The notes below the pieces were generated by a model. That model did no database searches, had not been told where the DNA came from, and saw only the letters and a list, made by a program, of their open reading frames with translations. A program made the position numbers and the translations under genes. A stretch of DNA of 52,305 bases, from positions 1 to 52,305 of the forward strand of contig JANXER010000008.1 of the NCBI GenBank assembly GCA_025057955.1, given 5' to 3'. The first letter of the stretch is position 1. Each line of letters starts with the position of its first letter. The DNA is from Candidatus Methanomethylicaceae archaeon (lineage in GTDB: Archaea; Thermoproteota; Methanomethylicia; Methanomethylicales; Methanomethylicaceae). This document shows positions 49,964 through 52,305 of the stretch, one piece after another.

Positions 49964-50905
49964 ATGTCAAGCATCAACACTCTTCTCATAAGATTTGCCA
50001 CAGAAAAACCAATTTCCTTTCAAAGCTTCTCAGGATTTGCTTCTTGTGGCGTCTTCTATAATTTGATAAAAAGCATTGATGAAAGTTTGGCAGAAGATCT
50101 TCACTCCTCCAAGAGGTTAGCTCCTTGGTCTGCATCACCAATATTTCTTGAGTATCCCCCTCCCCCTAGAATAATCTATCGAAACCTTCCAGCACCATCT
50201 ATTGCCAGCATTTCCTTCACTATAATGGAAGATAAGCTTAATAACATCATCAAGGAGATTTTAATAAGACCTAATTTCAGCATAGATTTAGTTGATGTAA
50301 AGCCGAGAATTTTAAATATTGGCGTAGAAACATATGACTTCTCTAAAATAGCATCAAGTGCTGAGCCCCTTCCAATGAAGTTCTCCATAAAATTTCTTAC
50401 ACCCACAGTTTTCAGAAGATCAATTTATGATTGTTGTCCATATTGTCCATATTATATGGATTATCTACGTACTTTAAAAGAGGGTAGAAAATTAGAGAGA
50501 CCATGTAAATATGCTAAATCCTGTAGAGGAACAATTCTCCCCCTTCCATTGCCTTCGCTTATGTTTAAGAATATGGCTAGAATATGGGCTGCATTTTCAG
50601 ATGAAAAATTAGATGTATGGGAGGCTGCACGTTGGGCTGAAGAGGCCATAGTGATTGCAGGATTTCCAAAAGGCATAAGGACTGTAAGAGTTTATGAGCA
50701 TCCAACCACAAATAAATGGATTGTTGGATTTACTGGGGAAGTTAGATTTTCCATAAGAGAAGATTTTTACAAGGATAAATATGCTAAAATAGCATCTGCA
50801 CTAATAAAGATGGCAGAGAAGACTAATGTAGGTGTAAGAAGAACTGCGGGATTGGGGATGATTAAGTATAAAGAATCTAATGCAAAAAAGGACGTTTCTA
50901 CATAG
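49964..50905 (+). CDS. cas6: CRISPR-associated endoribonuclease Cas6-like (RAMP) with Cys-rich insert
   Basis: 313 aa; FTGEVRFSIREDFYKDKYAKIASALIKMAEKTNVGVRRTAGLGMIKY resembles the Cas6 C-terminal Gly-rich region; DCCPYCPYY...PCKYAKSC; about 0.7 kb from the array. Confidence 0.8.
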   Translation: MSSINTLLIRFATEKPISFQSFSGFASCGVFYNLIKSIDESLAEDLHSSKRLAPWSASPIFLEYPPPPRIIYRNLPAPSIASISFTIMEDKLNNIIKEILIRPNFSIDLVDVKPRILNIGVETYDFSKIASSAEPLPMKFSIKFLTPTVFRRSIYDCCPYCPYYMDYLRTLKEGRKLERPCKYAKSCRGTILPLPLPSLMFKNMARIWAAFSDEKLDVWEAARWAEEAIVIAGFPKGIRTVRVYEHPTTNKWIVGFTGEVRFSIREDFYKDKYAKIASALIKMAEKTNVGVRRTAGLGMIKYKESNAKKDVST

Positions 50906-51598: not shown

Positions 51599-52074
51599 CT
51601 TTTATTTCTCTCTTCTTGAGATTCCCGCTTGAAGTTGCTATTTGCACAAATGTGCCGTTCTTTCAATTCTCTTTTCTTGAGATTCATTTCTTTTTCGTTA
51701 ATTTATATTGAGGTGAAATAATGACTTTCAATTCTCTTTTCTTGAGATTCCACAAATATGAGCGCATTAATACGATGGTCAGCGCCGAATGCTTTCAATT
51801 CTCTTTTCTTGAGATTCACACAATAGAAAACGAAACAAAAAGCGTATATGAGTACTTCTTTCAATTCTCTTTTCTTGAGATTCGGGAATAGCCAATTTAA
51901 GAATTCATGTGTACGAATCTTTCAATTCTCTTTTCTTGAGATTCTTCCCAATGGAAGCCCGCATTCGGTTATCGATGGGAAGACTTTCAATTCTCTTTTC
52001 TTGAGATTCATCCTTAAAAAATGAAGGATCTTTTGCAAAATCTTTGCTCTTTCAATTCTCTTTTCTTGAGATTC
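51599..52074 (-). CRISPR. CRISPR block 1: 8 repeats of 26 bp, crRNA sense on minus strand
   Basis: CTTTCAATTCTCTTTTCTTGAGATTC at 51660, 51725, 51792, 51858, 51919, 51984, 52049, plus degenerate terminal copy at 51599-51624 (3 mismatches); spacers 35-41 bp. Confidence 0.98.
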
Positions 52075-52114
52075 TTCCGCGGATAAAAGGACCGATCCGC
52101 TCAAGCCTGATCGA

Positions 52115-52305
52115 GAATCTCAAGAAAAGAGAATTGAAAGCACATTTCCACGCTTCTCTTCAATTTTTATGTTCTTAAGAATCTCAAGAAAAGAGAATTG
52201 AAAGTTTTCAGTTAAGTGAAAGGTAGCATCAAGTACCCATGCTCTTGAATCTCAAGAAAAGAGAATTGAAAGTGTCTAATTCTGATATTTATGTTGTGCT
52301 AATTT
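52115..52305 (+). CRISPR. CRISPR block 2: at least 3 repeats in inverted orientation, runs off window edge
   Basis: GAATCTCAAGAAAAGAGAATTGAAAG at 52115-52140, 52179-52204, 52247-52272; spacers 38 and 42 bp, then 33 bp partial to the end. Confidence 0.97.

Follow-up and report, generated by a model that had tools for sequence, protein, structure and literature searches.

Reversed repeat orientation in a CRISPR array at the contig end of a Methanomethylicaceae draft genome: a probable inverted chimera or misjoin

The CRISPR array at the end of contig C48 of a Candidatus Methanomethylicaceae archaeon reverses direction across a single short segment, and this reversal is probably an artefact, an inverted chimera or misjoin at the contig end, rather than a real inversion of the array. 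The window (the whole stretch of DNA that was analysed, 52,305 nucleotides) is the entire contig, position 52305 being its true end, and the source genome is a draft of 49 contigs and 1.21 Mb. The flipped part comprises only the last 191 bp of this 52-kb contig; the junction lies close to a contig end, where a local inverted chimera or misjoin would be expected. The relevant features of the window are as follows.

49964-50905, plus strand: Cas6-like endoribonuclease gene near the array (Pfam CRISPR_Cas6, E 5.4e-12; NCBIfam cas_cas6, E 2.3e-10, a match that falls below the curated cut-off of that model)
51599-51624, minus strand: degenerate terminal (leader-distal) repeat of block 1, with 3 mismatches to the repeat
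51660-52074, minus strand: block 1, seven perfect repeats and six spacers of 35-41 nt
52075-52114, no strand: junction segment at which the repeat orientation flips, 40 nt, spacer-sized, not a leader
52115-52272, plus strand: block 2, three perfect opposite-orientation repeats with spacers of 38 and 42 nt
52273-52305, plus strand: last spacer, incomplete (33 nt), cut by the contig end

The array repeat, CTTTCAATTCTCTTTTCTTGAGATTC, occurs in 11 copies across 51599-52272 (10 perfect, 1 degenerate), and shuffled sequence gave no match to it. In block 1, perfect copies start at 51660, 51725, 51792, 51858, 51919 and 51984, and the last occupies 52049-52074; a search of the window found no further copy to the left of 51599. 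In block 2, perfect reverse-complement copies are located at 52115-52140, 52179-52204 and 52247-52272. The spacers of both blocks are 35-42 nt long, regular in length and all different, as is typical of a CRISPR array. The single orientation expected of one array is kept inside each block and lost at 52075-52114. A preliminary description had reported this flip, and it was confirmed in every detail: eight forward repeats including the degenerate one, 40 nt, and three perfect reverse-complement repeats. A simple hairpin (snap-back) duplication was considered and rejected, since the spacers of block 2 are not reverse-complement copies of those of block 1; inverted matches between the blocks are confined to the repeat and a few flanking bases. 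The positive control for this test, locus L080, does show such a duplication: its two arms are reverse complements throughout, in the spacers as well as in the repeats.

The same repeat is found on contig C32, beside csa1 (Cas4 family), cas1, csa3 and an AT-rich leader, after which the array reads GAATCTCAAGAAAAGAGAATTGAAAG. This leader precedes the same repeat and therefore fixes the true direction of the array in the window. Judged by it, the functional direction of block 1 would be the minus strand, and the leader sides of the two blocks would therefore face each other without an intervening leader. Contig C32 and the Cas6-like gene of the window show that the genome also holds the leader and cas genes belonging to this system. 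It is plausible that C32 and C48 hold the start and, in block 1, the end of a single array whose central part was left unassembled.

The repeat of C48 resembles those of crenarchaeal-type arrays with Csa1, Cas1 and Csa3, such as Sulfolobales type I-A, in length and in its ending ATTGAAAG (24-26 nt). Spacers of 35-42 nt and a leader beside csa1 and cas1, as on C32, also match such loci; unlike C48, Sulfolobales type I-A loci have no block of repeats in the opposite orientation. A variant repeat, GAATCTCAAGAAGAGAGAATTGAAAG, is located at the end of contig C30, which also encodes RAMP proteins and a Csx1 protein; this neighbourhood is a type III-like module. The degenerate repeat at 51599-51624 carries the AAGAAGAGAG core of this C30 variant (L012, 6987-7206), hinting that the core form may be an older version of the C48 repeat. 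In another genome of the same genus, G030, a related array is built on a different repeat. The flanks of that array, on contig C1 of G030, are syntenic with 40.3-45.1 kb of the window and not with the flank of the window's own array; the array end that was expected is therefore not seen in G030.

The junction segment has a G+C content of 55%, compared with 21-51% in ten ordinary spacers of the same genome, and both of the repeats that border it are intact and perfect. It was rejected as a leader because it is short and, at this G+C content, unlike the AT-rich leader of C32. A pair of divergent arrays sharing a leader was rejected on the same grounds, as the 40 nt between the blocks do not resemble the C32 leader. 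Here the preliminary description had judged correctly; the actual leader, AT-rich and accompanied by csa1, cas1 and csa3, is on C32 and is dissimilar. A hairpin stem was uninformative as a sign of fold-back, the 6-bp stem of the window being equalled or exceeded in 15% of ordinary spacers. Neither 20-nt end of the segment has an exact match in IMG/VR, and the whole segment matched nothing in the phage collection. The first 24 nt have no second copy in the genome; this is not decisive, because the middle of the array appears to be unassembled. The array repeat itself is present in no IMG/VR contig, and no other genome of the family sample contains it when up to 2 mismatches are allowed; the array region has no match in the plasmid or phage collections.

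Flips of this kind are extremely rare. About 85,000 species genomes were searched for two head-to-head repeats with a spacer-sized gap, in a collection that may lack records close to the genome of the window; this and the other pattern searches covered only repeats that end in GAATTGAAAG. Twelve stretches matched, and only three were true flips: L015 in the Thermofilaceae MAG SKYB99, L017 in the Caldarchaeum MAG SKYG24, and L019 in the Sulfolobales MAG SKW88. Among 398 genomes of the window's phylum, 3 head-to-head junctions were found against 5,853 ordinary adjacent repeat pairs, the latter from 104 genomes. These three belong to the window's genome, G223 and G279; by identical coordinates and sequences, G223 is L017 and G279 is L015. 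A fourth match in the phylum sample, in G127, was rejected as merely a spacer containing the motif. No flip was detected in the genomes of this sample with at least 99% completeness (about 3,400 pairs by hand tally), a contrast that is weak evidence per flip because there are only three flips. When shorter head-to-head gaps were searched, one extra case was obtained, contig C122 of G201, which is the L080 control.

The contigs that carry these comparison cases are of poor quality. L015, L017 and L019 are all SPAdes contigs, with coverages in their titles of 3.0, 2.8 and 4.6, respectively. Like the window, they have head-to-head repeats, in their case across a segment of 43-65 nt (38 and 65 nt in L015 by its 22-nt repeat core). 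L015 and L019 differ from the window, which flips once, in having more than one flip and in being visibly scrambled. In L015, two repeat variants alternate within one block and both of its two flips join one variant to the other; it is a scrambled contig. L019 contains two flips, a run of Ns and a 320-bp insert. In L017 a single flipped repeat, at 62-86, is located beside the contig start. The case in G201 (1-230) is a perfect hairpin inside a CRISPR array, with 109-bp arms that include a spacer, at the start of a 45-kb contig, and it has the appearance of a fold-back artefact in a publicly deposited draft genome. As in the window, the array direction reverses near the contig end, in this case at a distance of no more than about 140 bp; unlike the window, whose spacers differ, the second arm is an exact 109-bp copy of the first. 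The flips of both L017 and G201 fall within about 140 bp of contig starts. Thus, in all of the flipped contigs with long normal flanks (the window, L017 and G201), the flip is about 200-230 bp or less from a contig end, which is roughly the length of one or two reads.

Several other features of these and related arrays were recorded. The insert of L019 (1683-2002) lies between oppositely oriented array blocks and contains an open reading frame; no relative was found when it was sought as viral sequence, and it is possibly viral sequence reached via an assembly jump. In L025 (G127, contig C82), the spacer at 1590-1630 begins with GGGGATGGAATTGAAAG, the end of a CRISPR-type repeat unlike that of its own array, which suggests that it was derived from another CRISPR array. 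In SKW88 (G400; L073, L076, L077, L078 and L079), the spacer pairs overlapping by at least 15 nt comprise 30 same-strand and 9 opposite-strand pairs and include near-duplicates that differ by point changes, which suggests that related virus sequences were sampled repeatedly.

The reading favoured here is the artefact. The assembly would have left out the central part of the array, which would connect block 1 with the leader fragment on C32, and C48 would have been extended over the gap by an inverted join of two places in the same array. In that case block 2 would be authentic array sequence from this genome, attached the wrong way round. Ligation of random fragments would not supply the same repeat, and the join would therefore have to be local or made via shared sequence. 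Two routes may be envisaged. A chimeric molecule or read may have arisen in library preparation or amplification. Alternatively, the assembly graph may have jumped via a pair of spacers whose source sites overlap on the two strands of one virus; spacers of this kind form inverted repeats, between which an assembler that uses short words could slip and so reverse direction. A substrate for this jump exists in one related draft genome, SKW88, where 228 spacers include 9 pairs that match in opposite orientation for 15 nt or more, the match being 21-29 nt long in five.

Inverted joins with an intervening deletion are the main class of chimeras in multiple displacement amplification (MDA) (PMC1855051). 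Like them, C48 has a local inverted join and the stretch between is apparently missing; a difference is that no general fold-back was seen at the other contig ends of this genome. Assembly of arrays from short reads gives chimeric contigs (PMC6617893). Some stretches of Sulfolobus arrays were, by error, first published in inverted orientation with respect to the leader and later corrected (PMC4390879), a reminder that array orientation is readily mistaken.

Three observations count against an artefact. Intact repeats with a spacer-sized gap are expected in only about 7% of joins with random breakpoints, so that a join made wholly at random is somewhat disfavoured; if the graph jumped via an overlap, with word lengths of 21-33, the corresponding expectation is 20-53% under a simple uniform-offset model. 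The search of the genome for another copy of the junction sequence, from which its two parent spacers could have been recognised, gave none. Furthermore, none of the 32 readable other contig ends of this genome shows a fold-back, and the assembly is therefore not generally full of errors of that type. The artefact is nevertheless favoured, on the basis of the position at a contig end, the low-coverage or scrambled comparison contigs and the lack of flips in near-complete genomes of the phylum sample.

A genuine in vivo inversion of an array segment is unlikely, although it is the strongest of the alternatives. Homologous recombination between spacers acquired from overlapping protospacers on opposite strands would flip the block between them. 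One border of the inverted block would then be a head-to-head junction containing a hybrid spacer and the other a tail-to-tail junction, and cells with either orientation may coexist. The preliminary description had stated that recombination between direct repeats is unable to invert part of an array; this is correct, but it had overlooked that spacers acquired from overlapping opposite-strand sites are inverted repeats, and SKW88 has nine such pairs. Overlaps of up to 29 nt in the arrays of that genome would allow such an event, and the C48 junction has precisely the length of a spacer, between repeats that are intact. Sulfolobales arrays are also known to recombine both internally and with one another, but structural irregularities are very few in these loci (PMC4390879). 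Moreover, near-complete genomes of the phylum sample have no flip, the comparison cases are all poor contigs, and no second, tail-to-tail junction is visible in the genome, C48 ending too soon to show one. The sequence signature alone does not distinguish an artefact from an inversion, because the same spacer overlap could in principle serve recombination in the cell.

Two separate arrays that truly stand head to head, with their leaders lost or with a minimal shared leader of 40 nt, would also bring the leader sides of both blocks to the junction, and longer-range examples exist, such as L068, with about 545 bp between its blocks. This explanation is nonetheless very improbable for C48: the segment is spacer-sized and, with its 55% G+C, unlike the AT-rich leader of C32, and the leaders of Sulfolobales are about 200-400 bp (PMC4390879). 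In L068 (527-3041; G398, contig C20), which is in the same draft genome as L015, the two blocks have the same repeat and could be true divergent arrays with leaders.

The adaptation machinery, in which Cas1-Cas2 integrates single spacer-sized fragments at the leader end, offers a further explanation. A spacer in L014 (295-345; Thermoproteota GXS.bins.2, NODE_13, coverage 50), 51 nt long, ends in 12 nt of an inverted repeat end, CTTTCAATTCTA, as if this machinery had captured CRISPR array DNA. That a multi-repeat array fragment was inserted inverted at a repeat border by aberrant integration in C48 would agree with such uptake and with the perfect repeats that border the junction on either side, but it is scarcely credible given that a block of at least three repeats far exceeds one spacer-sized fragment and that a literature search for array inversion found no precedent. 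Thus, among the three origins that the preliminary description had offered, the evidence favours the misjoin or chimera, and inversion and aberrant integration are less likely. Its further proposal, that a transcript across the junction would carry antisense repeats able to pair with pre-crRNA, is without support, since it presupposes a junction whose presence in the DNA is itself in doubt.

Important consequences follow in either case. If the flip is real, inversion of an array segment would be a CRISPR rearrangement for which no precedent was found, able to make antisense repeats. That the arrays of thermophilic archaea undergo such segment inversion via opposite-strand overlapping spacers, with head-to-head arrays possibly giving antisense repeats, is unlikely. 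If the flip is an artefact, then array direction, spacer order and the spacer-based links between hosts and viruses that are drawn from low-coverage drafts can be wrong, and a flip in repeat orientation provides a simple warning sign for screening the arrays of draft genomes.
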